From Galerina marginata (Eukaryota > Basidiomycota > Agaricomycetes > Agaricales > Galerinaceae), in NCBI GenBank assembly GCA_023014335.1, contig JAECYW010000005.1, positions 744,001 to 808,000 on the forward strand: DNA of 64,000 nucleotides, written 5' to 3'. Below, in pieces: positions 6,585 to 61,250 of this stretch (positions are counted from its first letter, which is position 1; every line of letters begins with the position of its first letter). A model generated the notes under the pieces. That model ran no database searches and was not told the DNA's origin. It saw nothing but the letters and a program-made list of their open reading frames with translations. The position numbers were made by a program, and so were the translations under genes.

Positions 6585-6654
6585 GTGGTCGAAGGCCGGG
6601 AGTCGATGGAAGCGGAACGCGGGTGAACTTCTTGTCGATCGTGCTGAGGAGCGA

Positions 6655-14359: not shown

Positions 14360-16560
14360 TCAAATACAACAGATAACATCAAGGCTAAGATCCAGGACAT
14401 GCAAGGCAGGTCCTCTGACACCATAGATAATGTCAAAGCGATGTTCCAGGACGATATAGCCTCGACTATTCCAATACTGTAGATAACGTCTAGGCCAAGA
14501 TTCAAAAAAATATTTTCAGAACTAGGTGGGAAAACATTTTTTGTGCCTGAAAATATTTTTAAACATCAGTGTGAAAATGTTTTGACAACGTCAAGGCAAA
14601 GATCCAGGAGAATATAGCTGTGACTGTTCCAATATCATTGATAATGTCAAGGCTAAGATCCAGAAGCCGAATGTCGAGTGCTCCAACACCATAGACAATG
14701 TCAAAGCGAAGATCCAGGACAATAGAACTGCGACTATTCCAATACCATTGATAAAGTCAAGGCTAAGATCCAGGACAAGGAAGGCAAGTCCTCTGACACC
14801 ATAGATAATGTCAAAGTGAATGTTGAGAAGAATATAGCTGTGACTATTGCAATACCATAGATAATGTCAAGGCTAAGATCCAAGACAAGCTGAATAGACA
14901 ATGTCAAAGCGAGGATCCAGGACAATATAGCCTCGACTATTCCAATACCATAGATAATGTCATGGCTAAGATTCAAAAAATATTTTCAGAACTAAGTGGG
15001 AAAATATTTTTTGTGCCTGAAAATATTTTTAGATCTCAGTGTGAAAATGTTTTGACATTGTCAAAGCAAAGATTCAGGACAATATAGCTGTGACTGTTCC
15101 AATACCATTGATAATGTCAAGGCAAAGATCCAGAAGCCAAATGTTGAGTCTTCTGACACCATAGACAATGTCAAGGCTAAGATCCAGGACAATAGAACCG
15201 CGACTATTCCAATACCATTGACAATGTCAAGGCAAAGATCCAGAAGCCGAATGTCGAGTCCTCTGACACCATAGACAATGTCAAGGCTAAGATCCAGGAC
15301 AATAGAACCGCGACTATTCCAATACCATTGACAATGTCAAGGCAAAGATCGAGAAGCCGAATGTCGAGTCCTCTGACACCATAGACAATGTCAAGGTTAA
15401 GATCCAGGACAATAGAACCGCGACTATTCCAATACCATTGACAATGTCAAGGCAAAGATCGAGAAGCCGAATGTCGAGTCCTCTGACACCATAGACAATG
15501 TCAAGGCTAAGATCCAGGACAATCCAACCGCGACTATTCCAATACCATTGACAATGTCAAGGCAAAGATCTAGAAGCCGAATGTCGAGTCCTCCGACACC
15601 ATAGACAATGTCAAAGCAAAGATTCAGGACAGTAGAACCGTGATTATTCCAATACCATTGACAATGTCAAGGCAAAGATCGAGAAGCCGAATGTCGAGTC
15701 CTCTGACACCATAGACAATGTCAAGGCTAAGATCCAGGACAATCCAACCGCGACTATTCCAATACCATTGACAATGTCAAGGCAAAGATCCAGAAGCCGA
15801 ATGTCGAGTCCTCCGACACCATAGACAATGTCAAAGCAAAGATTCAGGACAGTAGAACCGTGATTATTCCAATACCATTAATAATGTCAAGGCTAAGATT
15901 CAAAAAATATCTTCTGAACTAAGTGGGAAATATTTTTTGTGCCTGAAAATATTTTTAGACCTTAGTGTGAAAATGTTTTGACAATGTCAAGGCTAAGATC
16001 CAGGACAATATAGCCGCGACTGTTCCAATACCATTGATAACATCAAGGCTAAGATCCAGGACAAGAAAGTCGAGTCCTCTGACACCATAGATAACGTCAA
16101 GGCTAAGATCCAGGACAATATAGCCGCGACTGTTCCAATACCATTGATAACGTCAAGGCTAAGATCCAGGACAAGAAAGTCGAGTCCTCTGACACCATAG
16201 ATAACGTCAAGGCTAAGATCCAGGACAAGAAAGTCGAGTCCTCTGACACCATAGATAACGTCAAGGCTAAGATCCAGGACTTTATAGCCGCGACTGTTCC
16301 AATACCATTGATAACGTCAAGGCTAAGATCCAGGACTATATAGCCGCGACTGTTCCAATACCATTGATAACATCAAGGCTAAGATCCAGGACAATATAGC
16401 CGCAACTGTTCCAATGCCATTGATAATGTCAAGGCCAAAATCCAGGACAAGAAAAATAGACAATGGCAAAGCAAAGATCCAGGACAATATAGCTGTGAGC
16501 TTTCACATGTCATAGACAATTTCAAAGCAAACATACAAGACATACGGGAATAAATTCTTC
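14360..16560 (+). repeat. Satellite built from a ubiquitin gene fragment
   Basis: The unit contains, on the plus strand, codons for VESSDTIDNVKAKIQD, identical to fungal ubiquitin residues 17-32 (for example 15253-15300; also from 16069, where the K33 codon follows). A second, diverged version (CGACTATTCCAATACCATTG then ACAATGTCAAGG) alternates with it. From about 15090 to 15900 the two form a dimer with an exact 110-bp period (TTCC anchors at 15207, 15317, 15427, 15537, 15647, 15757, 15867). A different ~95-bp block (ATATTTTCAGAACTA...GTGCCTGAAAATATTTTTA) interrupts at about 14502, 14968 and 15889. Since 110 is not a multiple of 3 and stops abound, it is not coding now. It lies directly 3' of the KDZ transposase and may be inside that transposon. 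Confidence 0.88.
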
Positions 16561-17180: not shown

Positions 17181-17929
17181 TTACTCCCAGAAGGTTTAAA
17201 AGAGTAGCGGATCCACAAGCAGCTTTGGGAAGCCTGTGAGTAATTGGTTTAAACTTTTTGATTACTTTATTAATTATTCTGCCAATCAGCTCCAAGTCAA
17301 AGAAGAAAAATACTACAGTTGCAGCATTTACCCCAAGGTATTTTGATATCTAATTTTTATAGACTTCATATTAAACATATTTTTAGTCCAGAACAGAAGT
17401 CACCCAAAAAACCTTGTCATATATCAAAGCCAAAGCATCCCACCACTCCAACTAAAAATTCCAAGCTCAGATCGCCAATTGTTTTAATCCAGACCAAGAA
17501 AAAGATTACAAAAGCCATTAAAGAAGAGACTGCATCCGAGTCTGACGGTGGTAGTGAAAAGGCTAGATAGTGAAGACAAAGAAGACACACAGGAAGATGA
17601 AGACCAGACCGAAGATGATGAAGAGGAAGAAGAAGAGGGGGAGGATGAAGATGAAAAAGACGATTCTGATGCCAATTTCATAGATGATGAGGCGTATGTT
17701 CTTTTTGCTTTTTTCTTGGAATTAAACTAATTTTTTCTTATTGGTTTTCTTCTTTTAGTGAGGAGAATACCAGCTCAGAGGAGAATGAACCTCCTTTGAC
17801 CAAGTCCAAAGGAAAGACCAAAGCCAGGTATGTAAGATATACTTTGCTAAGAATAATATTTAATACTGCCTTTTAATAGTAATCCTCAACGTCAGAAAAT
17901 TGTTAACGCGGCCATGTATACTTTCTAAC

Positions 17930-19169
17930 TTGGTCAGAGGCCATTGCTGCGCATGGCAAAAACAAGTTCTTACTTTGGGGTGAGGCAGTGCGTGAAGACT
18001 TACAGTGTTATTCAATAAATATATATTTAATATGTAAATAATATGTAGTCCGCTCAAACGTGAACCGATTGGGATGATCTTATACTCAAAAAAAGCAGAA
18101 AAATGAGGCGGATCTAACAAGCCTAAAATCTGGCCCTGATTTTTACGATTTTTTTGATACCAAGATCATAAAAATTGGCCCAGTAATGGCTGAGATACAG
18201 AAACCATGCAGGGTCACTATAGCAGTGGGAGAATTTCCAACCATTGCGTTAGAAACCATTTCCTTCTGCTATCAAGTGTAGAAAACAAGTTCTTTTACTA
18301 CGTAAGAACTTGTAACAAGATTAATTCATACGTCGCTTAGTTTTTATCAGATTGCCTTGAAATAAAGTGTGTAATTATCAGAAAAATCAGGGCTATAAAA
18401 TGGTGTGACATATGTATTGTCACATTTTCATGTGACTTACCAAATGCGGAATGTCATTTGAAATACATAGTAAATAAGCCATTTTAAGAGATTTTAAAGG
18501 CATTAAAATAAAATAAAAATACTAATAATGTTTTTTTACCTAAGAGATGGTCTGTGCACACATCTCACATGACATATCCCTGAGAATATTTTGGTCTAAC
18601 TTGGTGCATCAACTGATTTCAAGGCAATTGCACAAAGTTCTGCTGTGAGTTTGATTATGTAAGCATCTAGAACATTATATTCAAGTCATTTGGTCATGTT
18701 TTGCAATGTTTGGTGTGTCTTTCAGGGGTTGTCCAGTCAGTTTAACACCAATTTTGCGATTTTCACTGAGTTAAGCTGGCTGTTTGCCAGATTTGGACAT
18801 CATGACATCATTGCAAAACATATGTAAATATTTGTACATTATTCTAGATTGGTCTGGATAACATATTTTAGTATATCTAGCTCACTGAAATCTGTTTTAA
18901 GTGTAAATTTACACAAATTTGCGCTTTTTGGGTCGTGTGAACACGTCACATGACCTAATCAACCCTGGATACACATGCCACATGAAAGCCCTGATTTTTA
19001 CGAATTTTTTGATACCAAGATCATAAAAATTGGCCCAGTAATGGCTGAGATACAGAAACCATGCAGGGTCACTATAGCAGTGGGAGAATTTCCAACCATT
19101 GCGTTAGAAACCATTTCCTTCTGCTATCAAGTGTAGAAAACAAGTTCTTTTACTACGTAAGAACTTGTA
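17930..19169 (+). mobile_element. Copy A: P-Q-R-Q element inserted in an intron
   Basis: Begins TTGGTCAGAGGCCATTGC and ends ACGTAAGAACTTGTA. AC precedes it at 17928-17929. The base pair after the right end is AT, so the duplication is imperfect here. Order: P (about 17930-18130), Q (to about 18312), R (to about 18990), Q (to 19169). The two Q copies are nearly identical. No coding capacity. Confidence 0.85.
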
Positions 19170-19322
19170 ATTTTCTTCCTACTTGTTCATTTTGTTGATT
19201 CTTTTCTGGCTTATAGAAAATCGGCAAAGAAGTCACAGGCAAAGGAAGAAAAGACCTTTGATAAGAGAAAAGATCTTTTGAAGGATACAGGAGTTTATCT
19301 GGAGGATTTGATCACTAAAGAC

Positions 19323-20324
19323 TTGGTCAGAGGCCATTGCTGCGCATGGCAAAAACAAGTTCTTACTTTGGGAGTGTGTGTTACAACATAAATATATGTT
19401 AAATAGGTAAATAATACATAGGCCGCTCAAATCTGAACCGATTGGGATGATCTTATACTCAAAAAAAGCAGGAAAATGAGGCGGATCTAACAAGCCGAAA
19501 ACAGCCTGGTCACGTGACCAGGAAGGCCCTGATTTTTACGATTTTTTTGATACCAAAATCATAAAAATTGGCCCAGTAATGGCTGAGATACAGAAACCAT
19601 GCAGGGTCACTATAGCAGTAGGAGAATTTCCATTGGTTTTGTTAGAAACCATTTCTGCCTGCTATGCAGGCCGGAAAACAAGTTCTTTTACTAATTATAA
19701 GAGATTTTAAAGGTATTAAAATAAAATAAAATACTGATAATGTTTTTTCTACCTAACAGGTGGTCTGTGCACACATATTACATGACATAATCCTAAAAAT
19801 ATTTTGGTCTAACTTGGTGCATCAACTGATTCCAAGGCAATTGCACAAAGTCCTGCTGTAAGTTTGATTATGTAAGCATCTAGAACATTATATTCAAGTC
19901 ATTTGGTCATGTTTGGCAATGTTTGGCATGTCTTTTATGGTCTATCCAGTCAGTTTAACACCAATTTTTGGATTTTCACCAAGTTGAGCTGGCTGTTTAC
20001 CAGATTTGGACACCATGACATCACTGCAAAACATATGTAAATATTTGTACATTATTCTAGATTTGTCTGGGCAACACATTTTAGCATATTTAGCCCACTG
20101 AAATCTGTTTCAAGTGGAAATTCATACCCATGCTACATGAAAGCCCTGATTTTTACGAATTTTTTGATACCAAAATCATCAAAATTGGCCCAGTAATGGC
20201 TGAGATACAGAAACCATGCAGGGTTACTATAGCAGTGGGAGAATCTCCAACCATTGCGTTAGAAACCATTTCTGCCTGCTATGCAGGCCGGAAAACAAGT
20301 TCTTTTACTACGTAAGAACTTGTA
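19323..20324 (+). mobile_element. Copy B: P-Q-R-Q element with an internal deletion
   Basis: Same termini as copy A, flanked by AC at 19321-19322 and 20325-20326. P includes the 18-bp palindrome CCTGGTCACGTGACCAGG (about 19507-19524). The first Q breaks off after TTCTTTTACTA (19692) and joins R part-way, so the 3' hairpin of Q1 and about 200 bp of R are missing. Confidence 0.85.
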
Positions 20325-20515
20325 ACAAACTGTTCAAATAATAGCATTGATATCATGTTTTAGTAAACAAAAATTGAAACTCACCTCAACGTTATATGAG
20401 AAACAGCGATGATTGATAAATCTTATAGGGCCAATCAAGAGCTTTTCATCAAATGAAGAATTCTTGTCCTTGTTGCGGTTATCAGGATGAGGGGTGATTG
20501 TAGAAAGATCAGTGT

Positions 20516-21782
20516 AATTACAAGTTCTTATGTAGTAAAAGAACTTGTTTTCCGGCCTGCATAGCAGGCAGAAAACATTCCTAACGCTGAGGACGGAAAT
20601 ACTCCCATTCATATAGTGACCCTGCATGGTTTCTGTATCTCAGCCATTACTGGGCCAAATTTAATGATTTTGGTATCAAAAAAATCGTAAAAATCAGGGC
20701 TTTCATGTGGTATGTGTATCCAGGGACAAATCGGTCATGTGACTTGTTCACACAACCCAAAAAGCGCAAATTTGTGTGAATTTACACTTAAAACAGATTT
20801 CAGTGAGCTAGATATGCTAAAATGTGTTGCCCAGACCAATCTAGAATAATGTACAAATAATTACATATGTTTTGTAATGATGTCATGGTGTCCACATCAG
20901 GCAAACAGTCAGCTCAACTTGGTGAAAATCCGAAAATTGGTGTTAAACTGACTAGAAAGCCCATAAAAGGCACACCAAACATTGCAAAACATGACCAAAT
21001 AACATGAAAATAATGTTTTCGAAGCTTACATAATCAAACTCACAGCAGGACTTTGTGCAATTGCCTTGGATTTGGTAATGCACCAACTTGGACCAAAATA
21101 TTCTCAGGGATATGTCATGTGATATGTGTGCACAGACCATCTTTTAGGTAAAAAAAACATTATCAGTATTTTTATTTTATTTTAATGCCTTTAAAATCTC
21201 TCAATATAGCTTATTTACTGTGGTTTCAATAATATTCCGCATTTGGTAAGTCACATAAAGATGTGACAATACGCATGTGACACCATCTTTTAGCCCTGAT
21301 TTTTTTGTTAATTACACATTTTGTTTCAAGGCAATCGGATAAAAACTAAGTGACGTATGAATTAATCTTTTTACAAGTTCTTATTGTAGTCAATTAATTA
21401 ATCTTGTTACAAGTTCTTACGTAGTAAAAGAACTTGTTTTCCGGCCTGCATAGCAGGCAGAAAACATTCCTAACGCCGAGGACGGAAATACTCCCATTCA
21501 TATAGTGACCCTGCATGGTTTCTGTATCTCAGCCATTACTGGGCCAAATTTAATGATTTTGGTATCAAAAAAATCGTAAAAATCAGGACTAGATTTTAGG
21601 CTTGTTAGATCTGCCTCATTTTTCTGCTTTTTTTGAGTATAAGATCATCCCAATAGCTTCAGATTTGAGCGGACTACATATTATTTACTTATTTAACATG
21701 TATTTATCTAACAATCTTGGTATCTCTCCATCCCCAAAGTAAGAACTTGTTTTTGCCATGCGCAGCAATGGCCTCTGACCAA
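20516..21782 (-). mobile_element. Copy C: P-Q-R-Q element inside the SET coding sequence
   Basis: Left (3') end TACAAGTTCTTATG preceded by AAT; right (5') end GCAATGGCCTCTGACCAA. GT at 20514-20515 and 21783-21784. Inserted between SET motifs of the minus-strand gene, in the gene's own orientation. Its Q variant (CTAACGCTGAGGACGG at about 20580) differs from that of copies A and B. Confidence 0.85.
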
Positions 21783-22288
21783 GTGTTTTGTGCGATCTTC
21801 TGGCATTAATCCAAGAAGTTCTAGGATGTATTCTCCTTTTATAATGTCCTTGGTGGCATAAATTGCAAAGCCTTTCTGATTAGCATGGCCAAGAGGTTTG
21901 ACCTTGAGATGTACAATGGCTTCTGGGTTGATAACCAAGGTGTAGGCTGCAATACACCTGTTAAGCTTTATTAATAGTGTATAGAGAATGAAATATCTTA
22001 AAACATACCAAGAAAGGGTCGCCAAACTCTCACTTTTTTTATTTTCCCAAACAAATAAAGGATAAAGAGAAAGAATACTTTTTGCCAGCTTTTCTGCTGT
22101 TGACACATATGCTGGTGGATCTTGGATATTAAGTTGGTGTTCGATTTTCTCAAACATAGACCAAATGATAGCGTGGGCAAAAGGTTTCATATTCATCTCC
22201 AAAGAGATAGTTTGGATATTGTGGATTTTGCTTTCAGATTTTTCCTTTTGTTGAGCAAAGAGAGCATTGACAATAAGAGGGTCAATGT

Positions 22289-22649
22289 TACAAGTTCTTA
22301 CGTAGTAAAAGAACTTGTTTTCCGGCCTGCATAGCAGGCAGAAAACATTCCTAACGCAATGGTTCGAAATTCTCCCACTGCTATAGTGACCCTGCATGGT
22401 TTCTGTATCTCAGCCATTACTGGGCCAATTTTGATGATCTTGGTATCAAAAAATTCGTAAAAATCAGGGCCTTTAGGCTTGTTAGAACCGCCTCATTTTT
22501 CTGCTTTTTTTGAGTATAAGATCATCCCAATCAGTTCAGATTTGAGCGGACTATGCATTATTTACTTATTTAACATATATTTATGTCGTAACACGCACCC
22601 ACAAAGTAAGAACTTGTTTTTGCCATGCGCAGCAATGGCCTCTGACCAA
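22289..22649 (-). mobile_element. Copy D: minimal 361-bp P-Q element
   Basis: Contains only P and a single Q, with no R. GT at 22287-22288 and 22650-22651. Its excision restores the SET reading frame. It is the shortest complete form seen and shows that R is dispensable or has been lost by recombination between Q repeats. Confidence 0.87.
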
Positions 22650-22891
22650 GTGTAGTATAGCCTTGGAGGAAAGAATAGCAAGAGACAAATGATTTGCAAG
22701 AGAGGATTTGTTGGAATTGCCTTGATTCCAGGCCATAGCACGATGAGAGGTAGAAGCAACCGCAGAGTCAGCCATTGAGTTGAAAGAAATTGCAGTTTTT
22801 TATTATATCCGGGAATCTTATATACACATACTCTCATAGCTTTATGGCTATGCAACTGTAGTTTCATAGCTCTGTGGCTATATCATATTAC

Positions 22892-25800
22892 TTGGTCAGA
22901 GGCCATTGCTGCGCATGGCAAAAACAAGTTCTTACTTTGTGGGTGCGTGTTACGACATAAATATATGTTAAATAAGTAAATAATGCATAGTCCGCTCAAA
23001 TCTGAACCGATTGGGATGATCTTATACTCAAAAAAAGCAGAAAAATGAGGTGATTCTAACAAGCCTAAAACGGCCTGGTCACGTGACCAGGAAGGCCCTG
23101 ATTTTTAGAAATTTTTTGATACCAAGATCATAAAAATTGGCCCAGTAATGGCTGAGATACAGAAACCATGCAGGGTCACTATAGCAGTGGGAGAATTTCC
23201 ATTGGTTTTGTTAGGAACCATTTCTGCCTGCTATGCAGGCCGGAAAACAAGTTCTTTTACTACGTAAGAACTTGTAACAAGATTAATTATTAGACTACAA
23301 TAAGAACTTGTAATAAGATTAATTCTTACGTTGCTTAGTTTTTATTGGATTGCCTTGAAACAAAGTGTGTAATTATCAGAAAAATCAGGGCTAAAAGATG
23401 GTGTCACATAGGTATTGTCACACCTTTATGTGACTTACCAAATGCGGAATATTGTTTGAAATACACTATATTGGGAGATTTAAAGGCATTAAAATAAAAT
23501 AAAAATACAGATGATGTTTTTTTTACCTAAGGGATGGTCTGTGCACACATATCACATGACATATCCCTGAGAATATTTTGGTCTAACTTGGTGCCTCAAT
23601 TGATTTCAAGGGATTTGCACAAAGTCCTGCTGTGAGTTTGATTATGTAAGCTTCTAAAACATTATTTTCATGTTATTTGGTCATATTTGGAATGTTTGGT
23701 GTGCCTTTTATGGGTTATCCACTCAGTTTAACACCAATTTTCTGATTTTCACCAAGTTGAGCTGACTGTTTGCCTGATTTGGACACCATGACATCATTGC
23801 AAAACATATGTAAATATTTGTACATTATTCTACATTGGTCTGGGCAATACATTTTAGCATATGTAGCTCACTGAAATCTGTTTTAAGTGTAAATTGACAC
23901 AAATTTGCGCTTTTTGGGTTGTGTGAACAAGTCACATGACCTAATCAACCCTGGATACACATGCCACATGAAAGCCCTGATTTTTAGAAATTTTTTGATA
24001 CCAAGATCATAAAAATTGGCCCAGTAATGGCTGAGATACAGAAACCATGCAGGGTCACTATAGCAGTGGGAGAATTTCCATTGGTTTTGTTAGGAACCAT
24101 TTCTGCCTGCTATGCAGGCCGGAAAACAAGTTCTTTTACTACGTAAGAACTTGTAACAAGATTAATTATTAGACTACAATAAGAACTTGTAATAAGATTA
24201 ATTCTTACGTTGCTTAGTTTTTATTGGATTGCCTTGAAACAAAGTGTGTAATTATCAGAAAAATCAGGGCTAAAAGATGGTGTCACATAGGTATTGTCAC
24301 ACCTTTATGTGACTTACCAAATGCGGAATATTGTTTGAAATACACTATATTGGGAGATTTAAAGGCATTAAAATAAAATAAAAATACAGATGATGTTTTT
24401 TTTACCTAAGGGATGGTCTGTGCACACATATCACATGACATATCCCTGAGAATATTTTGGTCTAACTTGGTGCCTCAATTGATTTCAAGGGATTTGCACA
24501 AAGTCCTGCTGTGAGTTTGATTATGTAAGCTTCTAAAACATTATTTTCATGTTATTTGGTCATATTTGGAATGTTTGGTGTGCCTTTTATGGGTTATCCA
24601 CTCAGTTTAACACCAATTTTCTGATTTTCACCAAGTTGAGCTGACTGTTTGCCTGATTTGGACACCATGACATCATTGCAAAACATATGTAAATATTTGT
24701 ACATTATTCTACATTGGTCTGGGCAATACATTTTAGCATATGTAGCTCACTGAAATCTGTTTTAAGTGTAAATTGACACAAATTTGCGCTTTTTGGGTTG
24801 TGTGAACAAGTCACATGACCTAATCAACCCTGGATACACATGCCACATGAAAGCCCTGATTTTTAGAAATTTTTTGATACCAAGATCATAAAAATTGGCC
24901 CAGTAATGGCTGAGATACAGAAACCATGCAGGGTCACTATAGCAGTGGGAGAATTTCCATTGGTTTTGTTAGGAACCATTTCTGCCTGCTATGCAGGCCG
25001 GAAAACAAGTTCTTTTACTACGTAAGAACTTGTAACAAGATTAATTATTAGACTACAATAAGAACTTGTAATAAGATTAATTCTTACGTTGCTTAGTTTT
25101 TATTGGATTGCCTTGAAACAAAGTGTGTAATTATCAGAAAAATCAGGGCTAAAAGATGGTGTCACATAGGTATTGTCACACCTTTATGTGACTTACCAAA
25201 TGCGGAATATTGTTTGAAATACACTATATTGGGAGATTTAAAGGCATTAAAATAAAATAAAAATACAGATGATGTTTTTTTTACCTAAGGGATGGTCTGT
25301 GCACACATATCACATGACATATCCCTGAGAATATTTTGGTCTAACTTGGTGCCTCAATTGATTTCAAGGGATTTGCACAAAGTCCTGCTGTGAGTTTGAT
25401 TATGTAAGCTTCTAAAACATTATTTTCATGTTATTTGGTCATATTTGGAATGTTTGGTGTGCCTTTTATGGGTTATCCACTCAGTTTAACACCAATTTTC
25501 TGATTTTCACCAAGTTGAGCTGACTGTTTGCCTGATTTGGACACCATGACATCATTGCAAAACATATGTAAATATTTGTACATTATTCTACATTGGTCTG
25601 GGCAATACATTTTAGCATATGTAGCTCACTGAAATCTGTTTTAAGTGTAAATTGACACAAATTTGCGCTTTTTGGGTTGTGTGAACAAGTCACATGACCT
25701 AATCAACCCTGGATACACATGCCACATGAAAGCCCTGATTTTTAGAAATTTTTTGATACCAAGATCATAAAAATTGGCCCAGTAATGGCTGAGATACAGA

Positions 25801-28276
25801 AACCATGCAGGGTCACTATAGCAGTGGGAGAATTTCCATTGGTTTTGTTAGGAACCATTTCTGCCTGCTATGCAGGCCGGAAAACAAGTTCTTTTACTAC
25901 GTAAGAACTTGTAACAAGATTAATTATTAGACTACAATAAGAACTTGTAATAAGATTAATTCTTACGTTGCTTAGTTTTTATTGGATTGCCTTGAAACAA
26001 AGTGTGTAATTATCAGAAAAATCAGGGCTAAAAGATGGTGTCACATAGGTATTGTCACACCTTTATGTGACTTACCAAATGCGGAATATTGTTTGAAATA
26101 CACTATATTGGGAGATTTAAAGGCATTAAAATAAAATAAAAATACAGATGATGTTTTTTTTACCTAAGGGATGGTCTGTGCACACATATCACATGACATA
26201 TCCCTGAGAATATTTTGGTCTAACTTGGTGCCTCAATTGATTTCAAGGGATTTGCACAAAGTCCTGCTGTGAGTTTGATTATGTAAGCTTCTAAAACATT
26301 ATTTTCATGTTATTTGGTCATATTTGGAATGTTTGGTGTGCCTTTTATGGGTTATCCACTCAGTTTAACACCAATTTTCTGATTTTCACCAAGTTGAGCT
26401 GACTGTTTGCCTGATTTGGACACCATGACATCATTGCAAAACATATGTAAATATTTGTACATTATTCTACATTGGTCTGGGCAATACATTTTAGCATATG
26501 TAGCTCACTGAAATCTGTTTTAAGTGTAAATTGACACAAATTTGCGCTTTTTGGGTTGTGTGAACAAGTCACATGACCTAATCAACCCTGGATACACATG
26601 CCACATGAAAGCCCTGATTTTTAGAAATTTTTTGATACCAAGATCATAAAAATTGGCCCAGTAATGGCTGAGATACAGAAACCATGCAGGGTCACTATAG
26701 CAGTGGGAGAATTTCCATTGGTTTTGTTAGGAACCATTTCTGCCTGCTATGCAGGCCGGAAAACAAGTTCTTTTACTACGTAAGAACTTGTAACAAGATT
26801 AATTATTAGACTACAATAAGAACTTGTAATAAGATTAATTCTTACGTTGCTTAGTTTTTATTGGATTGCCTTGAAACAAAGTGTGTAATTATCAGAAAAA
26901 TCAGGGCTAAAAGATGGTGTCACATAGGTATTGTCACACCTTTATGTGACTTACCAAATGCGGAATATTGTTTGAAATACACTATATTGGGAGATTTAAA
27001 GGCATTAAAATAAAATAAAAATACAGATGATGTTTTTTTTACCTAAGGGATGGTCTGTGCACACATATCACATGACATATCCCTGAGAATATTTTGGTCT
27101 AACTTGGTGCCTCAATTGATTTCAAGGGATTTGCACAAAGTCCTGCTGTGAGTTTGATTATGTAAGCTTCTAAAACATTATTTTCATGTTATTTGGTCAT
27201 ATTTGGAATGTTTGGTGTGCCTTTTATGGGTTATCCACTCAGTTTAACACCAATTTTCTGATTTTCACCAAGTTGAGCTGACTGTTTGCCTGATTTGGAC
27301 ACCATGACATCATTGCAAAACATATGTAAATATTTGTACATTATTCTACATTGGTCTGGGCAATACATTTTAGCATATGTAGCTCACTGAAATCTGTTTT
27401 AAGTGTAAATTGACACAAATTTGCGCTTTTTGGGTTGTGTGAACAAGTCACATGACCTAATCAACCCTGGATACACATGCCACATGAAAGCCCTGATTTT
27501 TAGAAATTTTTTGATACCAAGATCATAAAAATTGGCCCAGTAATGGCTGAGATACAGAAACCATGCAGGGTCACTATAGCAGTGGGAGAATTTCCATTGG
27601 TTTTGTTAGGAACCATTTCTGCCTGCTATGCAGGCCGGAAAACAAGTTCTTTTACTACGTAAGAACTTGTAACAAGATTAATTATTAGACTACAATAAGA
27701 ACTTGTAATAAGATTAATTCTTACGTTGCTTAGTTTTTATTGGATTGCCTTGAAACAAAGTGTGTAATTATCAGAAAAATCAGGGCTAAAAGATGGTGTC
27801 ACATAGGTATTGTCACACCTTTATGTGACTTACCAAATGCGGAATATTGTTTGAAATACACTATATTGGGAGATTTAAAGGCATTAAAATAAAATAAAAA
27901 TACAGATGATGTTTTTTTTACCTAAGGGATGGTCTGTGCACACATATCACATGACATATCCCTCAGAATATTTTGGTCTAACTTGGTGCCTTAACTGATT
28001 TCAAGGGATTTGCACAAAGTCCTGCTGTGAGTTTGATTATGTAAGCTTCTGAAACATTATTTTCATGTTATTTGGTCATGTTTTGCAATGTTTGGTGTGC
28101 CTTTTATGGGTTATCCAGTCAGTTTAACACCAATTTTTGGATTTTCACCAAGTTGAGCTGACTGTTTGCCTGATTTGGACACCATGACATCATTGCAAAA
28201 CATATGTAAATATTTGTACATTATTCTAGATTGGTCTGGACAACACATTTTAGCATATCTAGCTCACTGAAATCTG
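22892..28276 (+). mobile_element. Copy E: element expanded to an 879-bp tandem array
   Basis: Starts with P (TTGGTCAG..., after AC at 22890-22891, about 115 bp upstream of the SET ATG) including the 18-bp palindrome. Then come Q-R units with an exact period of 879 bp: the GATACCAAG anchor falls at 23118, 23997, 24876, 25755, 26634 and 27513. The first five units look identical base for base. The last R (from about 27960) differs at many positions and resembles R of copies A, F and G. The array stops inside R at 28276, where the 104-bp minisatellite begins, so the 3' end of the element is missing. Confidence 0.9.
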
Positions 28277-29285
28277 TAATGAATTTGCTCCAGCATTAAC
28301 CAACTCACAGCAAGTCATCCGAACTCACTGCAGGTCATCCGGAACTCACCGCAAGTCATCCGCAAGTCATTATAAGGATATGATGAATTTGCTCCAACAT
28401 TAACCAACTCAATGCAAGTCATCCGAACTCACCGCAAGTCATCCGGAACTCACCGCAAGTCATCCGCAAGTCATTATAAGGATACGATGAATTTGCTCCA
28501 ACATTAACCAGCTCAATGCAAGTCATCCGAACTCACCGCAAGTCATCCGGAACTCACTGCAAGTCATCCGCAAGTCATTATAAGGATACGATGAATTCGC
28601 TCCAGCATTAACCAACTTACTGCAAGTCATCTGAACTCACCACAAGTTATACGAACTCACCGCAAGTCATCCGCAAGTCATTATAAGGATATGATGAATT
28701 CGCTCCAGCATTAACCAACTCACAGCAAGTCATCCGAACTCACTGCAGGACATCCGGAACTCACCGCAAGTCATCTGCAAGTCATGATAGGGATACGATG
28801 AATTTTCTCCAGCATTAACCAACTCAATGCAAGTCATCCGAACACACCGCAAGTCATCTTAACTCACCGCAAGTCATCCACAAGTCATCATAAGGATACA
28901 ATGAATTCGCTCCAACATTGACCAACTTACTGCAAGTCATCCGAACACACCACAAGTCATCCGGAACTCACCACAAGTCATCCACAAGTCATCATAAGGA
29001 TACGATGAATTCGCTCCAACATTAACCAACTCACTGCAGGTCATCTGGAACTCACCGCAAGTCATCCACAAGTCATTATAAGGATACAATGAATTTGCTC
29101 CAATATTAACCAACTTACCGCAAGTCATCCGAACACACCGCAAGTCATCCGAACACACCGCAAGTCATCCGGAACTCACCGCAAGTCATCCACAAGTCAT
29201 CATAAGGATACGATGAATTCGCTCCAACATTAACCAACTCACTGCAGGTCATCCGAACCCACCACAAGTCATCCGCAAGTCATTA
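28277..29285. repeat. 104-bp minisatellite with ~20-bp subunits
   Basis: About 9.5 copies; GAATT anchors at 28281, 28385, 28489, 28593, 28696, 28800, 28903, 29007, 29091 and 29215. Each unit holds GAATTYGCTCCARCATTAAC followed by three or four CAAGTCATCCGAACTCACCG-type subunits and TCATTATAAGGATAYGAT. The 84- and 124-bp spacings reflect loss and gain of one subunit. Confidence 0.9.
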
Positions 29286-29299
29286 ATTCACCAACTATT

Positions 29300-29372
29300 C
29301 TAATTACAAAAGCAAAAACAAAAACAAAAACAAAAACAAAAACAAAAACAACAACAACAACAACAACAAAAG
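29300..29372 (+). repeat. Simple repeat (CAAAAA)n then (CAA)n
   Basis: Six or so AAAAAC hexamers followed by about six AAC trinucleotides, between the minisatellite and copy F. Confidence 0.9.
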
Positions 29373-29406
29373 TACAAAACAAAACATAAACATTTTTCTT
29401 AATAGT

Positions 29407-32400
29407 TACAAGTTCTTACGTAGTAAAAGAACTTGTTTTCCGGCTGCATAGCAGGCAGAAATGGTTTCTAACGCAATGGTTGGAAATTCTCCCACTGCTA
29501 TAGTGACCCTGCATGGTTTCTGTATCTCAGCCATTACTGGGCCAATTTTTATGATCTTGGTATCAAAAAAATCGTAAAAATCAGGGCTTTCATGTGGCAT
29601 GTGTATCCAGGGTTGATTAGGTCATGTGACTTGTTCACACGACCCAAAAAGCGCAAATTTGTGTGAATTTACACTTAAAACAGATTTGAATGAGCTAGAT
29701 ATGCTAAAATGTGTCGCCCAGACCAATATAGAATAATGTACAAATATTTACATATGTTTTGCAATGATGTCATGGTGTCCAAATCCGGCAAACAGTCAGC
29801 TCAACTTGGTGAAAATCCGAAAATTGGTGTTAAACTGACTGGATAATCCATAAAAGGCACACCAAACATTGCAAAACATGACCAAATAACATGAAAATAA
29901 TGTTCTAGAAGCTTACATAATCAAACTCACAGCAGGACTTTGTGCAATTGCCTTGGATTTGGTAATGCACCAACTTGGACAAAAGTATTCTCAGGGATAT
30001 GTCATGTGATATGTGCGCACAGACCACCTGTTAGGTAAAAAAAAGATTATCAGTATTTTTATTTTATTTTAATGCCTTTAAAATCTCTCAATATAGCTTA
30101 TTTACTGTGTTTTCAACAATATTCCGCATTTGGTAAGTCACATAAAGATGTGACAATACGAATGTGACACCATCTTTTATCCCTGATTTTTCTGATAATT
30201 ACACACTTTGTTTCAAGGCAATCCGATAAAAGCTAAGTGACGTATGCATTAATCTTGTTACAAGTTCTTATTGTAGTCAATTAATTAATCTTGTTACAAG
30301 TTCTTACGTAGTAAAAGAACTTGTTTTCCGGCCTGCATAGCAGGCAGAAATGGTTTCTAACGCAATGGTTGGAAATTCTCCCACTGCTATAGTGACCCTG
30401 CATGGTTTCTGTATCTCAGCCATTACTGGGCCAATTTTTATGATCTTGGTATCAAAAAAATCGTAAAAATCAGGGCTTTCATGTGGCATGTGTATCCAGG
30501 GTTGATTAGGTCATGTGACTTGTTCACACGACCCAAAAAGCGCAAATTTGTGTGAATTTACACTTAAAACAGATTTGAATGAGCTAGATATGCTAAAATG
30601 TGTCGCCCAGACCAATATAGAATAATGTACAAATATTTACATATGTTTTGCAATGATGTCATGGTGTCCAAATCCGGCAAACAGTCAGCTCAACTTGGTG
30701 AAAATCCGAAAATTGGTGTTAAACTGACTGGATAATCCATAAAAGGCACACCAAACATTGCAAAACATGACCAAATAACATGAAAATAATGTTCTAGAAG
30801 CTTACATAATCAAACTCACAGCAGGACTTTGTGCAATTGCCTTGGATTTGGTAATGCACCAACTTGGACAAAAGTATTCTCAGGGATATGTCATGTGATA
30901 TGTGCGCACAGACCACCTGTTAGGTAAAAAAAAGATTATCAGTATTTTTATTTTATTTTAATGCCTTTAAAATCTCTCAATATAGCTTATTTACTGTGTT
31001 TTCAACAATATTCCGCATTTGGTAAGTCACATAAAGATGTGACAATACGAATGTGACACCATCTTTTATCCCTGATTTTTCTGATAATTACACACTTTGT
31101 TTCAAGGCAATCCGATAAAAGCTAAGTGACGTATGCATTAATCTTGTTACAAGTTCTTATTGTAGTCAATTAATTAATCTTGTTACAAGTTCTTACGTAG
31201 TAAAAGAACTTGTTTTCCGGCCTGCATAGCAGGCAGAAATGGTTTCTAACGCAATGGTTGGAAATTCTCCCACTGCTATAGTGACCCTGCATGGTTTCTG
31301 TATCTCAGCCATTACTGGGCCAATTTTTATGATCTTGGTATCAAAAAAATCGTAAAAATCAGGGCTTTCATGTGGCATGTGTATCCAGGGTTGATTAGGT
31401 CATGTGACTTGTTCACACGACCCAAAAAGCGCAAATTTGTGTGAATTTACACTTAAAACAGATTTGAATGAGCTAGATATGCTAAAATGTGTCGCCCAGA
31501 CCAATATAGAATAATGTACAAATATTTACATATGTTTTGCAATGATGTCATGGTGTCCAAATCCGGCAAACAGTCAGCTCAACTTGGTGAAAATCCGAAA
31601 ATTGGTGTTAAACTGACTGGATAATCCATAAAAGGCACACCAAACATTGCAAAACATGACCAAATAACATGAAAATAATGTTCTAGAAGCTTACATAATC
31701 AAACTCACAGCAGGACTTTGTGCAATTGCCTTGGATTTGGTAATGCACCAACTTGGACAAAAGTATTCTCAGGGATATGTCATGTGATATGTGCGCACAG
31801 ACCACCTGTTAGGTAAAAAAAAGATTATCAGTATTTTTATTTTATTTTAATGCCTTTAAAATCTCTCAATATAGCTTATTTACTGTGTTTTCAACAATAT
31901 TCCGCATTTGGTAAGTCACATAAAGATGTGACAATACGAATGTGACACCATCTTTTATCCCTGATTTTTCTGATAATTACACACTTTGTTTCAAGGCAAT
32001 CCGATAAAAGCTAAGTGACGTATGCATTAATCTTGTTACAAGTTCTTATTGTAGTCAATTAATTAATCTTGTTACAAGTTCTTACGTAGTAAAAGAACTT
32101 GTTTTCCGGCCTGCATAGCAGGCAGAAATGGTTTCTAACGCAATGGTTGGAAATTCTCCCACTGCTATAGTGACCCTGCATGGTTTCTGTATCTCAGCCA
32201 TTACTGGGCCAATTTTTATGATCTTGGTATCAAAAAAATCGTAAAAATCAGGGCTTTCATGTGGCATGTGTATCCAGGGTTGATTAGGTCATGTGACTTG
32301 TTCACACGACCCAAAAAGCGCAAATTTGTGTGAATTTACACTTAAAACAGATTTGAATGAGCTAGATATGCTAAAATGTGTCGCCCAGACCAATATAGAA

Positions 32401-34255
32401 TAATGTACAAATATTTACATATGTTTTGCAATGATGTCATGGTGTCCAAATCCGGCAAACAGTCAGCTCAACTTGGTGAAAATCCGAAAATTGGTGTTAA
32501 ACTGACTGGATAATCCATAAAAGGCACACCAAACATTGCAAAACATGACCAAATAACATGAAAATAATGTTCTAGAAGCTTACATAATCAAACTCACAGC
32601 AGGACTTTGTGCAATTGCCTTGGATTTGGTAATGCACCAACTTGGACAAAAGTATTCTCAGGGATATGTCATGTGATATGTGCGCACAGACCACCTGTTA
32701 GGTAAAAAAAAGATTATCAGTATTTTTATTTTATTTTAATGCCTTTAAAATCTCTCAATATAGCTTATTTACTGTGTTTTCAACAATATTCCGCATTTGG
32801 TAAGTCACATAAAGATGTGACAATACGAATGTGACACCATCTTTTATCCCTGATTTTTCTGATAATTACACACTTTGTTTCAAGGCAATCCGATAAAAGC
32901 TAAGTGACGTATGCATTAATCTTGTTACAAGTTCTTATTGTAGTCAATTAATTAATCTTGTTACAAGTTCTTACGTAGTAAAAGAACTTGTTTTCCGGCC
33001 TGCATAGCAGGCAGAAATGGTTTCTAACGCAATGGTTGGAAATTCTCCCACTGCTATAGTGACCCTGCATGGTTTCTGTATCTCAGCCATTACTGGGCCA
33101 ATTTTTATGATCTTGGTATCAAAAAAATCGTAAAAATCAGGGCTTTCATGTGGCATGTGTATCCAGGGTTGATTAGGTCATGTGACTTGTTCACACGACC
33201 CAAAAAGCGCAAATTTGTGTGAATTTACACTTAAAACAGATTTGAATGAGCTAGATATGCTAAAATGTGTCGCCCAGACCAATATAGAATAATGTACAAA
33301 TATTTACATATGTTTTGCAATGATGTCATGGTGTCCAAATCCGGCAAACAGTCAGCTCAACTTGGTGAAAATCCGAAAATTGGTGTTAAACTGACTGGAT
33401 AATCCATAAAAGGCACACCAAACATTGCAAAACATGACCAAATAACATGAAAATAATGTTCTAGAAGCTTACATAATCAAACTCACAGCAGGACTTTGTG
33501 CAATTGCCTTGGATTTGGTAATGCACCAACTTGGACAAAAGTATTCTCAGGGATATGTCATGTGATATGTGCGCACAGACCACCTGTTAGGTAAAAAAAA
33601 GATTATCAGTATTTTTATTTTATTTTAATGCCTTTAAAATCTCTCAATATAGCTTATTTACTGTGTTTTCAACAATATTCCGCATTTGGTAAGTCACATA
33701 AAGATGTGACAATACGAATGTGACACCATCTTTTATCCCTGATTTTTCTGATAATTACACACTTTGTTTCAAGGCAATCCGATAAAAGCTAAGTGACGTA
33801 TGCATTAATCTTGTTACAAGTTCTTATTGTAGTCAATTAATTAATCTTGTTACAAGTTCTTACGTAGTAAAAGAACTTGTTTTCCGGCCTGCATAGCAGG
33901 CAGAAATGGTTTCTAACGCAATGGTTGGAAATTCTCCCACTGCTATAGTGACCCTGCATGGTTTCTGTATCTCAGCCATTACTGGGCCAATTTTTATGAT
34001 CTTGGTATCAAAAAAATCGTAAAAATCAGGGCCTTCCTGGTCACGTGACCAGGCCGTTTTAGGCTTGTTAGATTCGCCTTATTTTTCTGCTTTTTTCGAG
34101 TATAAGATCATCCCAATCGGTTCAGATTTGAGCGGACTACATGTTATTTACGTATTTAATATGTATTTGTTTAATAACAGTGTAAGTCTTCAGGCACTGC
34201 CTCACCCCAAAGTAAGAACTTGTTTTTGCCCTGCGCAGCAATGGCCTCTGACCAA
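29407..34255 (-). mobile_element. Copy F: element expanded to an 889-bp tandem array, minus orientation
   Basis: GT at 29405-29406 and 34256-34257 bound a complete element. On the minus strand it reads P (34255 to about 34030, with the CCTGGTCACGTGACCAGG palindrome at about 34035-34052), then Q-R units of 889 bp, then a final Q. TACAAGTTCTTACG anchors recur at 29407, 30295, 31184, 32073, 32962 and 33851. The units look identical except for a missing C in the outermost Q. Inserted about 30 bp past the stop codon of KDZ copy 2. A 61-codon open stretch repeats in every Q but is not considered a gene. Confidence 0.9.
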
Positions 34256-34285
34256 GTCATACTGCTTAGACCCCCAATATGACAC

Positions 34286-36254
34286 TCAATATATAGCCTC
34301 TAGATTCATTTCCATTGCATTTATCTCGATATTATCCAGTAGTTCTGCCTCATCTATGTCCTCCTGCTCTTCTCCTACAAAGTCAGCCTCCTCATCTTCC
34401 TCATAATCACTTTCTTTTACTTCAAACTCATTTGCTTTGGCTCTTTCAACATCTTTTGGTCCCCAAACCCTTTCTGTAACTTCAGACATTTTTGCTTCAG
34501 CTATTTCAGCCTCACTTGGTCCCCAAGATTCATTAAATACATCAGGAATGACCAAAACTTGTGGCTGCCATGCAATACAAAGCCTCAGCAGATATTTCTT
34601 CCGCTCTTTCAGTTGAAATATCACATCAGGATGTGCCTGAGCCCAATTCAAGGCCACCATTAATATTTCCCATTCTTCTCGTATCCATTGTTGCATAGAT
34701 AGCTTTTCTTCCCTAAGTCGTCTTTGTTCTTCAACACAGCGATCATACCCTAGCAAAGCTTTAATTCCAATTCGTACATCATCAATTCCTAGCCAGGCTG
34801 GAATTTCCAAAGGATTATCATTATCATCTGTCAATCCAATATCTTGCCAGATATCATCATCTACATCCAGCTTGAATAAGCCATCCAACTCAATTTGCAA
34901 AGGAGCAACTGCACCCCTAGGTGCCTTTCTTGAGTCAATTAATTTCACCAACTCAGAACACAATTTGTTGTAGTTTCTGGCAAGTGCTTGAATACCTGGT
35001 TCCTTCTTTTTGAATGATTGTTCAGTGTGCTTTTGCAATTTTGAATGATTTATAGTATTTCTATAAGCCCGCTCCAAGCTTTCAATCTCAAACTTTCTCT
35101 GGCGAAGTCGATCACGAATGCGCTGTTTCAATGCCAAGGCATTCATACGAATTTTCAAAAATTCATTTCCCATAAGATTTTTCAAATTTAGTCTTCCATC
35201 AACTGAAAGCTTTCCTCTTTTATAAGCTATAGCAGTTTGAATTTTTTTCACTTTAATGTTGAGTTCTTCAATTGACTCTGTTACAGAAATTGGGTCCAGA
35301 CCATCCTCATATTCCCCGTCAACAAGCATCTTTTCAAGTTTATTCAAATCCTTCTTGTTATTCTCTAGACTTTTTGTTAACGCCAATATTTCTTCAATTT
35401 CTTTATTCGCCAAATGCTTTGATTGTCGCTTTAGAGGTTTAGTTTGTTCAGCAACCTGATTATCCCACTGTTCTCGCAAAAATTTCTCTGTATATCCTTG
35501 GTTGTACAACTCTTCCAAAATTTCAGCTGCTTCAGCTTTTCGATTACCAGCTGTGATCCATTTCCTCCGTATCCACAGACCCAAGTCCAGCATAGATTTC
35601 TGATCAAGATGTTTGATCTTGGTGTCAATGGTGTAGATACGGTTAAAATAACTGGAGACTCGGCAAGAAGGAATCAATGCTTTTATGGCACTCCAAAATC
35701 TCTCACAACCTTCACCATCGGTTAATCCAAAGCCTTTACACTTTCTCGGGTGATATATAATTTGACAAGGCCATTGATGACCATATGCATGGAATACTGA
35801 AATTCCAAATACAATACGGTCCTGAAAGTCACCGAGAAAATCAAACTTGGTACAACTTCTATGGAGTTGACATCCAATATCATACAATAAGCCAACCCGC
35901 ATAGATTCTGGGATATGTTCAAACAACTTGTGTAATAACGCCAAGGCATAATGCTGTTTTTCACCCGCAGATGTCATGTTTGCAAGCCACAATACTCGAT
36001 CATGCCGACAAAGTATACCCATAAGACCAGTATCAGCAAAAAACACAGTGTTGGCTTTAATACGCCGTTCATCGGCTGCTAGAAAGGAGTCATGACACTC
36101 ATTAAGAACAGCCGAAGGCACTTTCATCCCAGGCTCATAATCTGGGCCCCCAGTCTCTTTTTCTTTCTCCTTTGATGGCTTGGCCTTGTTATCTTTTTTC
36201 TTCTTACTAGGACGAACTGTTTCAACCTTCTCCTCCATAGCTGTTAGCTCCTCT
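34286..36254 (-). pseudogene. KDZ-superfamily transposase (copy 2), 5'-truncated by element G
   Basis: One open frame of about 655 codons, homologous to KDZ copy 1 from its residue ~360 to the end (for example LLYDIGCQLHRS, TDGEGCERFWSAIKALIPSCRVS and AKLSVDGRLNLEKL-like GKLSVDGRLNLKNL). The cysteine cluster, exons 1-5 and the first catalytic aspartate (the DACFTQK region) are absent: the coding sequence is cut at EELTAMEEKVE by element G and the 5' part is not found beyond it. The two KDZ proteins are clearly diverged in linkers and tail, so they are different families rather than a recent duplicate. The retained frame has no stops or frameshifts, so truncation is recent. It cannot transpose as read. 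Confidence 0.85.
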
Positions 36255-36256
36255 GT

Positions 36257-37330
36257 TACAAGTTCTTACGTAGTAAAAGAACTTGTTTTCCGGCCTGCAT
36301 AGCAGGCAGAAATGGTTTCTAACGCAATGGTTGGAAATTCTCCCACTGCTATAGTGACCCTGCATGGTTTCTGTATCTCAGCCATTACTGGGCCAATTTT
36401 GATGATTTTGGTATCAAAAAATTTGTAAAAATCAGGGCTTTCATGTGGCATGTGTATCCAGGGTTGATTAGGTCATGTGACTTGTTCACACAACCCAAAA
36501 AGCGCAAATTTGTGTGAATTTACACTTAAAACAGATTTCAGTGAGCTAAATATGCTAAAATGTGTTGCCCAGACCAATGTAGAATAATGTACAAATATTT
36601 ACATATGTTTTGCAATGATGTCATGGTGTCCAAATCTGGCAAACAGTCAGCTCAACTTGGTGAAAATCGGAAAATTGGTGTTAAACTGACTGGATAACCC
36701 ATAAAAGGCACACCAAACATTGCAAAACATGACCAAATAACATGAAAATAATGTTTTAGAAGCTTACATAATCAAACTCACAGCAGGACTTTGTGCAAAT
36801 CCCTTGAAATCAATTGAGGCACCAAGTTAGACCAAAATATTCTCAGGGATATGTCATGTGGTATGTGTGCACAGACCATCCCTTAGGTAAAAAAAACATC
36901 ATCTGTATTTTTATTTTATTTTAATGCCTTTAAATCTCCCAATATAGTGTATTTCAAACAATATTCCGTATTTGGTAAGTCACATAAAGGTGTGACAATA
37001 CATATGTGACACCATCTTTTAGCCCTGATTTTTCTGATAATTACACACTTTGTTTCAAGGCAATCTGATAAAAACTAAGCGACGTATGAATTAATCTTGT
37101 TACAAGTTCTTACGTAGTAAAAGAACTTGTTTTCCGGCCTGCATAGCAGGCAGAAATGGTTTCTAACGCAATGGTTGGAAATTCTCCCACTGCTATAGTG
37201 ACCCTGCATGGTTTCTGTATCTCAGCCATTACTGGGCCAATTTTGATGATTTTGGTATCAAAAAATTCGTAAAAATCAGGGCCTTCCCGGTCACGTGACC
37301 AGGCCGTTTTAGGCTTGTTAGAACTGCCTC
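36257..37330 (-). mobile_element. Copy G: element in KDZ copy 2, truncated in P
   Basis: GT at 36255-36256, then Q (36257 to about 36437), R (to about 37100), Q, the P palindrome variant CCCGGTCACGTGACCAGG (about 37285-37302), and P up to GTTAGAACTGCCTCA at about 37331. There it breaks into unrelated sequence instead of continuing to the TTGGTCAG end. The missing end coincides with loss of the KDZ 5' half, so one deletion probably removed both. Confidence 0.85.
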
Positions 37331-37930
37331 ACAGCTGGGGTGGGACTATTTTGACAGAGGGTCAAAATATTGGGTAGGTTGTTAGGATTTTGGCTAGCAG
37401 TCAAAATGTCGTCAAAATTCTTTCTTTTGCCTTAAGCAAGATCAGGGCAAGAGATCAGATTTTGCTAAAATTTTGCTAATGTTTAAATCAAACACTTTCC
37501 CTGCTGGCTAAACATTGACAAAAGAATGACTTTTGTTGTTATTTACACTGAATGAAAATATAACATTTTGTGGAGGCCAAAGGTTGACTCAAAATGTAGT
37601 ATTTTGCTTAGATTTTCCATCATGCAAAATTGCTGATTTAGCCAAGTGGCAAAGCGGCACTGATACCCAGAAATTTTAAACGCAGGTCAACACACAATAT
37701 TTTGCTTTGTATTTTATTTGCGGGCAAAGTATCGTGTTTTGACCTGATATTTTGCCTTATATTGTGTTCACGGGTAAAATATTGGAGTCAAAACATGATA
37801 TTTTACTCTGTATTTTGCCCGGACAAAATACTGAGGACAAAATGGATCGCGTGATGAGCGTGTCGCGCTTCGGTCGCTGAGCGTGCCAGATTTCGGTCGC
37901 TGAGTGTCTCGCAGACTAAGCGTGGCGCTA
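37331..37930. repeat. Region dense in short CAAAATA/TATTTTG motifs and a GC-rich subrepeat
   Basis: From 37350 to 37850 TATTTTG, CAAAATA, GTCAAAAT and close variants occur well over ten times on both strands, like the subterminal binding-site clusters of some DNA transposons. Just right of it TTCGGTCGCTGAGCGTG occurs twice in tandem with variation (37868-37910). Confidence 0.5.
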
Positions 37931-61212: not shown

Positions 61213-61250
61213 TTAACAAAGCTTGATAGAATTACTTCTTGCGGGCCAGA

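Follow-up and report, generated by a model that had tools for sequence, protein, structure and literature searches.

Short transposons with Helitron2-type ends in Galerina marginata and their 31–39-kb Rep-bearing relatives

A stretch of 64,000 nucleotides from the Galerina marginata genome (assembly GCA_023014335.1, contig JAECYW010000005.1, positions 744,001–808,000; hereafter the window) carries one repeat family, whose copies A to G were delineated at window positions 17929–37331 by comparing the window with itself. We conclude that these copies are very probably non-autonomous rolling-circle transposons of the Helitron2 type, similar to Helentron-associated elements (HINEs), and that the Rep-helicase of relatives of 31–39 kb probably acts on them. 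A first-pass annotation, made from the window alone, had described a non-autonomous family with AC/GT 2-bp target duplications, for which a Crypton-like or Helitron-variant mechanism was conceivable. This apparently rule-breaking element can now be read as a well-defined non-autonomous Helitron with relatives, a target rule and empty sites. The genome searched comprises 69.3 Mb in 43 contigs, with the window located on contig C39. The end sequence TTGGTCAGAGG occurs 484 times in it as an exact match, against 26 occurrences of a reversed-pattern control, which confirms the proposal of a repeat family with these ends.

The minimal element is copy D (window 22288–22650, plus strand), whose 363 bp consist of a 5′ part of ~188 bp and a 3′ part of ~175 bp. 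On the sense strand, its 5′ terminus (22288–22318) reads TT-ACAAGTTCTT-ACGTAGTAA-AAGAACTTGT, comprising TT, the 5′ asymmetric terminal inverted repeat (ATIR), a loop and the hairpin arm. The 3′ terminus (22608–22650) reads AAGAACTTGT-TTTTT-GCCATGCGCAGCAATGGC-CTCTGACCAAG, where AAGAACTTGT is the 3′ ATIR and GCCATGCGCAGCAATGGC a palindrome, and is followed by a T outside the element. The 5′ ATIR starts 2 bp (TT) from the 5′ end, within the 0–2 bp of Helitron2, and itself makes the 5′ hairpin. Across a spacing of 9 nt all 10 of 10 bases pair, and none of 200 shuffled sequences folds as stably. The 3′ ATIR is complementary to the 5′ ATIR at 10 of 10 positions and stands directly before the TTTTT and the palindrome, again as in Helitron2; its edge lies 33 bp from the 3′ end, slightly outside the ~20–30 bp quoted for that type. 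The subterminal hairpins of the first-pass annotation correspond to this perfect 10-bp hairpin and, at the other end, to a GCCAT...ATGGC palindrome that does exist. Its observation that ordinary terminal inverted repeats are lacking is also correct, as the ends do not match in that way.

The orientation of the family follows from its long relatives. The first three Rep-helicase elements that were read, on contigs C21, C40 and C6, end in ...GCCATGCGAAGCAATGGCC...CAAG, then T, and AAGGACTCAT was found at further 3′ ends in the genome. Since the left end as originally drawn is the reverse complement of these GCCATGCGAAGCAATGGCC...CAAG ends, we infer that left is the sense 3′ end and right the sense 5′ end. 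The original element limits were thus slightly misplaced and lay on the reverse strand, and the C at the left end belongs to the element.

The flanks obey a simple rule. Left-end flanks were tabulated for 100 rows (98 distinct) of 340 matching sites, with a pattern demanding a non-C base 19 positions out, and right-end flanks for 100 rows out of 852 sites, these 100 comprising 42 units inside arrays and 58 other rows. Among the rows listed, the left end reads N-A|CTTGG in 100 of 100, with a mixed base beyond the A (A33 T24 G21 C20). The right end reads ACTTGT-AA in 57 of 58 non-array rows listed, and the next base is T24, C17, A10 and G0 in 51 distinct rows. On the sense strand the rule is (A/G/T)|TT-ACAAG ... 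CAAG|T, or D|T for the target, and the base 5′ of the element is A24 G17 T10 in the 51 distinct copies listed. The T after the element is constant in the listed rows and the base preceding it is most often, not always, A, as compared with the A/T insertion of canonical Helitrons. Because the C is the element's last base and the A a target base, there is no AC/GT duplication. At one end, the apparent AC/GT is made up of the element's last base and a base of the flank; at the other, it arises from the constant TT together with a G that is frequent there. The odd insertion signature is mostly ordinary once the ends are drawn correctly.

Empty sites were sought by joining the flanks of copies and searching with 25 distinct pairs; five of these are ends inside arrays rather than true pairs. 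A match spanning the junction was obtained for nine of the 25, and six of these nine were clean and seamless at 79–100% identity, at paralogous sites. Five of the six clean sites are A|T and one is G|T; TT is present at none. The net insertion in all six is TTACAAG...CAAG without duplication, an element-borne T and a 1-bp duplication of T being indistinguishable. One copy is nested in a Rep-helicase frame on C4, and the uninterrupted counterpart on C6 (CATAAAA|TGAAAG) is identical over 240 of 240 bp across the joined flanks.

PF14214 (Helitron_like_N) has 120 matches in the genome. Thirty Rep loci were cut out, 20 of which carry the canonical motif RGLPHxH (L009–L028) and 10 of which do not (L029–L038). 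The RGLPHxH loci constitute a second Helitron group coexisting in the genome, with frames of up to 1685 aa. The other type was read on C6, C21 and C40 in frames of 2626, 2665 and 2646 aa, which contain HxH in VEQQGRLTLHxH, YxxxY and a Walker A motif. DUF6570, Helitron_like_N and PIF1 domains were identified in both the C6 and C21 proteins; in the C6 frame (2626 aa) the former two fall within the first 1486 aa and PIF1 within the last 1172 aa. Used as a query, the C6 Rep region retrieved 751 protein relatives, and a search for solved structures resembling the first 1486 aa of this Rep-helicase gave no match at E 0.01.

By pairing, from coordinates, 5′ hairpins with 3′ ends around the Rep matches, we predict Rep-bearing elements of ~31–39 kb (hereafter giants). 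The seven whose ends were read all start with TT-ACGAGTTCTT-ACGTAGTAA-AAGAACTCGT and end with AAGAACTCGT-TTTTT-GCCATGCGAAGCAATGGC-CTCTAAACAAG|T, in unrelated flanks. Their exact 5′ boundary is TT-ACGAG..., preceded by g, a, a, g, t, g and a, respectively, and their exact 3′ boundary is CAAG|T in seven of seven. In five of the seven giants, 12.7–12.9 kb separate the 5′ hairpin from the anchor at the start of locus L048, and in the C23 giant, by a 73% match, ~12.0 kb; for the C39 giant no anchor is listed among the 40 of 87 candidates scored. An open frame of >2600 aa spanning the Rep match is kept in four of seven. The giants insert in the same manner as the short copies and as single units, which seamless empty sites demonstrate for three of the seven (C39, C12 and C23). 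The first of these sites lies in the window itself (4255–4554, minus strand), where 300 of 300 bp are identical to the joined flanks of the 30.7-kb Rep-bearing element C39:655868–686592. The empty site of the C12 giant is found inside C6-element sequence (97.7%), and that of the C23 giant matches at 92.7%.

A giant of ~33.3 kb occurs twice on C6 in opposite orientation (C6:1792274–1825605 and C6:1851244–1884573). The two copies are 100% identical over the DNA compared (C6:1804982–1817521), which suggests that the giant was duplicated in inverted orientation recently, or else duplicated in the assembly. Scanning ten frames of the C6 giant for cargo gave one HSP70 match above the cut-off and four other matches below theirs. 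The HSP70 gene fragment (L048:2349–3173, C6:1807330–1808154; E 2e-71) is a possible gene capture; it is absent from the alignments listed for the other giants, and similar stretches occur on C41, C31, C8 and C14. A 19-bp palindrome near L043:597 had been a candidate for the C6-type 5′ end, with 11 copies aligning from 590–597 on, but flanking loci show it to be internal. The true C6-type 5′ end lies ~20 kb further upstream, as located by the ACGAG hairpin search and read in seven copies. A C4 Rep copy that seemed to bear the window family's own ends was likewise rejected: the C4:1278161 end is that of a short copy distinct from it, and no 5′ end was found for the C4 Rep copy.

Comparing the window family with the giants reveals nearly the same ends. 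Over the terminal 30 bases they agree at 28 of 30 positions (5′) and 27 of 30 positions (3′), above the >80% at both ends of the rule in PMC6544945, and the first 94 bp of the giants are 79–83% identical to copy D. At C23:2204695 (minus strand), an exact copy of the window family's 3′ ATIR is found 5581 bp away from where a Rep match starts, a distance identical to that in the C6 element. Inside one element the 5′ and 3′ ATIRs correspond at 10 of 10 positions in the window family (ACAAGTTCTT) and in both H, a second family described below, and the giants (ACGAGTTCTT). Moreover, a single ATIR base separates the window family from the giants, and it changes in step at all three places, namely 5′ repeat, hairpin arm and 3′ repeat. 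A relative encoding Rep and PIF1 with nearly the same ends (ACGAG versus ACAAG in the ATIR), as expected of a Helitron2 family, has hence been identified. The family is probably mobilised by the Rep-bearing giants, whose enzyme would act on the window copies. The designation as non-autonomous stands, as does the guess of a Helitron variant. The remark that no partner enzyme is visible applies to the window and fails for the genome, where nearly the same ends flank a Rep match in larger elements and the suggested search for a longer, enzyme-bearing copy leads to the seven giants.

We propose that the Rep-helicase of the autonomous giants would nick at the 5′ end, at the D|TT-ACAAG hairpin, after which one strand would be peeled off and copied toward the 3′ end. 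There, the 3′ ATIR, the palindrome and CAAG may signal termination, and the single strand, or a circle as the presumed intermediate, would be joined into a D|T site without duplication. A likely end signal is that the 3′ ATIR pairs with the 5′ ATIR and thereby opens the 5′ hairpin, as has been proposed for Helitron2 (PMC3627910). The in-step base difference between the family and the giants offers a direct test of whether this pairing sets the replication endpoint.

Several other explanations were weighed. Taken literally, the first-pass observation would imply a cut-and-paste element that lacks inverted repeats and duplicates 2 bp of its target, AC/GT. In its favour are the AC found at the left end of all 100 rows listed and the AC/GT on both sides of window copies B, D, F and H; the same two-sided flanks had been claimed for C, where they do not hold, nor do they in A. 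However, every copy listed has the C, and the base beyond the A varies; at the right end AA is followed by T, C or A, with AC in only 17 of 52 distinct rows listed, and nothing, including AC, is duplicated in the six clean empty pairs. This leaves the duplication with practically no probability. Equally negligible is a Crypton-like tyrosine-recombinase element, for which only the lack of terminal inverted repeats speaks: a Rep-helicase is carried by elements with nearly the same ends, and no search for a tyrosine recombinase was made.

Two alternatives stay within the Helitrons. A true HINE, mobilised by a Rep-helicase with a C-terminal apurinic/apyrimidinic (AP) endonuclease and inserted at TT, would match the palindromic subterminal repeats, the 3′ palindrome, the internal tandem repeats and the clustering (PMC4067079). 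We nevertheless consider it unlikely, because a search of the last 1172 and 1184 aa of two partners (C6 and C21) found no Pfam endonuclease domain at E 0.001, TT insertion is contradicted by the clean empty sites (0 of 6) and by the mixed base 5′ of the element, and the Rep motif lacks the Helentron S. It is more improbable still that the copies were moved by the canonical RGLPHxH Helitrons of this genome and not by the giants. That motif is present in 20 of the 30 Rep loci read, and insertion beside a T resembles canonical Helitrons, but both ends are common to the window family and the giants.

Some observations weigh against a Helitron2-type family moved by the giants. Sixteen of the 25 flank pairs gave no spanning match, and the remaining spanning matches comprise one to a copy's own sequence, one seamless at only ~73% and one with nearby gaps at 72%. 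AA is absent in one of the 58 right-end rows listed. The palindrome at the 3′ end, originally taken for a second hairpin, is short and of ordinary stability (108 of 200 shuffles equal or better), and the 5′ and 3′ ATIRs correspond at only 8 of 10 positions in the C21/C40 type. All seven giants are of the ACGAG type, and the exact ACAAG ATIR at both ends was seen in no autonomous element read. The giants are known from the ends of seven and parts of the C6 element, and four of seven gave no empty site in the sequence searched. Finally, in their Rep motif II, VEQQGRLTLHxH, both the Helentron S and the Helitron L named in the motif descriptions of PMC4067079 are missing.

Copies of the family can contain repeated 5′ ends, which make up internal array units of 850–890 bp. 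Copies A (17929–19170, minus strand, 1242 bp; from TTACAAG at 19170, the sense 5′ end, to CAAG at 17929, the sense 3′ end, followed by T) and C (20518–21783, plus strand, 1266 bp) each contain one additional 5′-end unit, and B (19322–20325, minus strand, 1004 bp) is a variant with an internal rearrangement or deletion. Copy E (22891–28277, minus strand) is an array of 879-bp units whose outermost 5′ part is missing and which is joined to a 104-bp minisatellite at 28278. Copy F (29406–34256, plus strand, 4851 bp) is an array of 889-bp units with one 3′ end, and G (36256–37331, plus strand) consists of a 5′ end and one unit, its 3′ end missing. In E, F and a copy on C4, a full 5′ end opens each unit of 879–889 bp, and both F and the C4 copy close in a single 3′ end. 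Shifted by one unit, the arrays are 99.6% (E), 99.9% (F) and 99.97% (C4) identical to themselves with gaps, and 96.7% (E) and 99.3% (F) without, versus ~91% between E and F. Complete copies form a length ladder of 363–407, 1242–1266, 2187, 4823 and 4851 bp, represented by many copies, with copies of 850 and 1004 bp outside it. At least three head-to-tail CAAG|TTACAAG junctions occur among the right-end rows listed, two of which look like one duplicated stretch; such junctions are compatible with circles whose ends have joined and also with insertion next to a 5′ end already in place. The simplest account of the arrays, as we infer it, would begin with self-insertion; transposition would then run from the outer 5′ end as far as the first 3′ end, and tandem recombination would come last. 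The arrays form a natural series in which to ask which of the 5′ ends is used by the enzyme.

H (4943–6585, plus strand), previously regarded as an old copy of the family, instead belongs to a second non-autonomous family of ~1.64 kb with related ends (ATIR ACGAGTTCTT/AAGAACTCGT, end CAAG|T). A copy 96% identical to H lies at C12:3513089–3514733, and the ACGAG hairpin at C12:3514701, a rejected candidate for a giant 5′ end, is part of a copy of H.

Ninety ACGAG-type 5′ ends lie on 15 of the 43 contigs, with spans of 52–512 kb per contig. Over the 12 contigs whose length is known these spans add up to 2.9 Mb, whereas 10000 random placements gave 26.7 Mb on average and never less than 18.5 Mb. 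The window family's ends cluster less strictly: among the first 100 places listed, a few stand alone or in a second cluster (C1:1454499, C1:1986867, C1:2265345, C2:2135143, C3:928575 and C4:692963–724566). The ACGAG-end clusters, with one region per contig, possibly correspond to centromeres; a literature search found nothing joining basidiomycete, RepHel and centromere.

Whereas this kind of element is already known, the size of its partners, their divergent Rep motif and their clustering are noteworthy. The giants exceed twice the length of the fungal Helitrons in PMC5148889 and PMC4289320 (5–13.3 kb). Tentatively, and with somewhat less than even confidence, we suggest that they represent a distinct autonomous lineage of 31–39 kb. 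It would be marked by a DUF6570-Rep-PIF1 protein of ~2650 aa, a motif II unlike that of published Helitron types, its own end code (D|TT-ATIR hairpin ... ATIR-palindrome-CAAG|T), an HSP70 piece in one copy, many short parasites with tandemly amplified 5′ ends, and giant-type ends in one region per contig that may mark centromeres. Helitron and DUF6570 occur together in none of the papers searched.

The window also harbours other repeats. KDZ transposase frames (PF18758) are located at 12065–14149 (plus strand, E 1e-62) and 34286–36265 (minus strand, E 1e-56), the latter between copies F and G. Minisatellite arrays occupy 14360–16540 (period ~110 bp) and 28278–29285 (~104 bp), the second abutting the broken 5′ side of copy E. 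At 48983–52796 (plus strand), two adjacent frames, one with a Transposase_21 match (Plavaka weak, below the cut-off) and the other with a weak DUF4218 match below the cut-off, are possibly a CACTA-like element. Another transposon may lie at 60430–61214, where inverted ends (60430–60613 and 61019–61214) are 84% identical and the stretch is 95% identical to C21:127551–128322.

The overall architecture of the window family is reminiscent of Helitron2 (Bao and Jurka 2013, PMC3627910), for which ATIRs of 8–15 bp, a 5′ hairpin formed by a 5′ ATIR 0–2 bp from the 5′ end, a 3′ ATIR just upstream of a 3′ palindrome, a T at the 5′ end and intact-5′ copies without target duplication have been described. 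The 5′ hairpin and ATIR layout, the 3′ ATIR with its palindrome, the 5′ T and the absence of duplication all recur here. However, the Chlamydomonas target is TTTT|T or C, and here it is D|T. The published Helitron2 features are present, placement of the protein in Helitron2 by a tree aside. Canonical Helitrons (Helitron1), in contrast, have 5′ TC and 3′ CTRR ends and no 5′ hairpin, in place of the TT...CAAG with a 5′ hairpin seen here.

The family shares several features with FoHeli1 and FoHeli2 of Fusarium oxysporum (Chellapan 2016, PMC5148889): ATIRs, a hairpin at each end, non-autonomous derivatives, multiple 5′ termini ahead of a single 3′ terminus, nested self-insertion, and ends confirmed by empty sites. 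A self-insertion model has been put forward for the multiple 5′ termini there. Whereas FoHeli ends read TCAG...ATTTT and autonomous elements measure ~5–11 kb, the ends here are TT...CAAG and the partners 31–39 kb. The Fusarium elements have few non-autonomous copies, in contrast to hundreds of non-autonomous ends here, and their duplicated 5′ pieces are typically <200 bp, as opposed to units of 850–890 bp.

Helentrons, HINEs and DINE-1 (Thomas 2014, PMC4067079) likewise have non-coding derivatives, palindromic subterminal repeats, a 3′ palindrome, an unmodified target site and internal tandem repeats. They differ in their TT target, their Rep motif and the AP endonuclease, which was not found in the two partners searched here. 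Pleurotus HELPO1 and HELPO2 (Castanera 2014, PMC4289320) are fungal Helitrons with a 3′ palindrome, AT insertion and captured genes, and HELPO2 ends in CTTG. Unlike the family described here, they have T[C/G]...CTRR-type ends, for which the descriptions in PMC4289320 give no ATIRs, and lengths of up to 13.3 kb.

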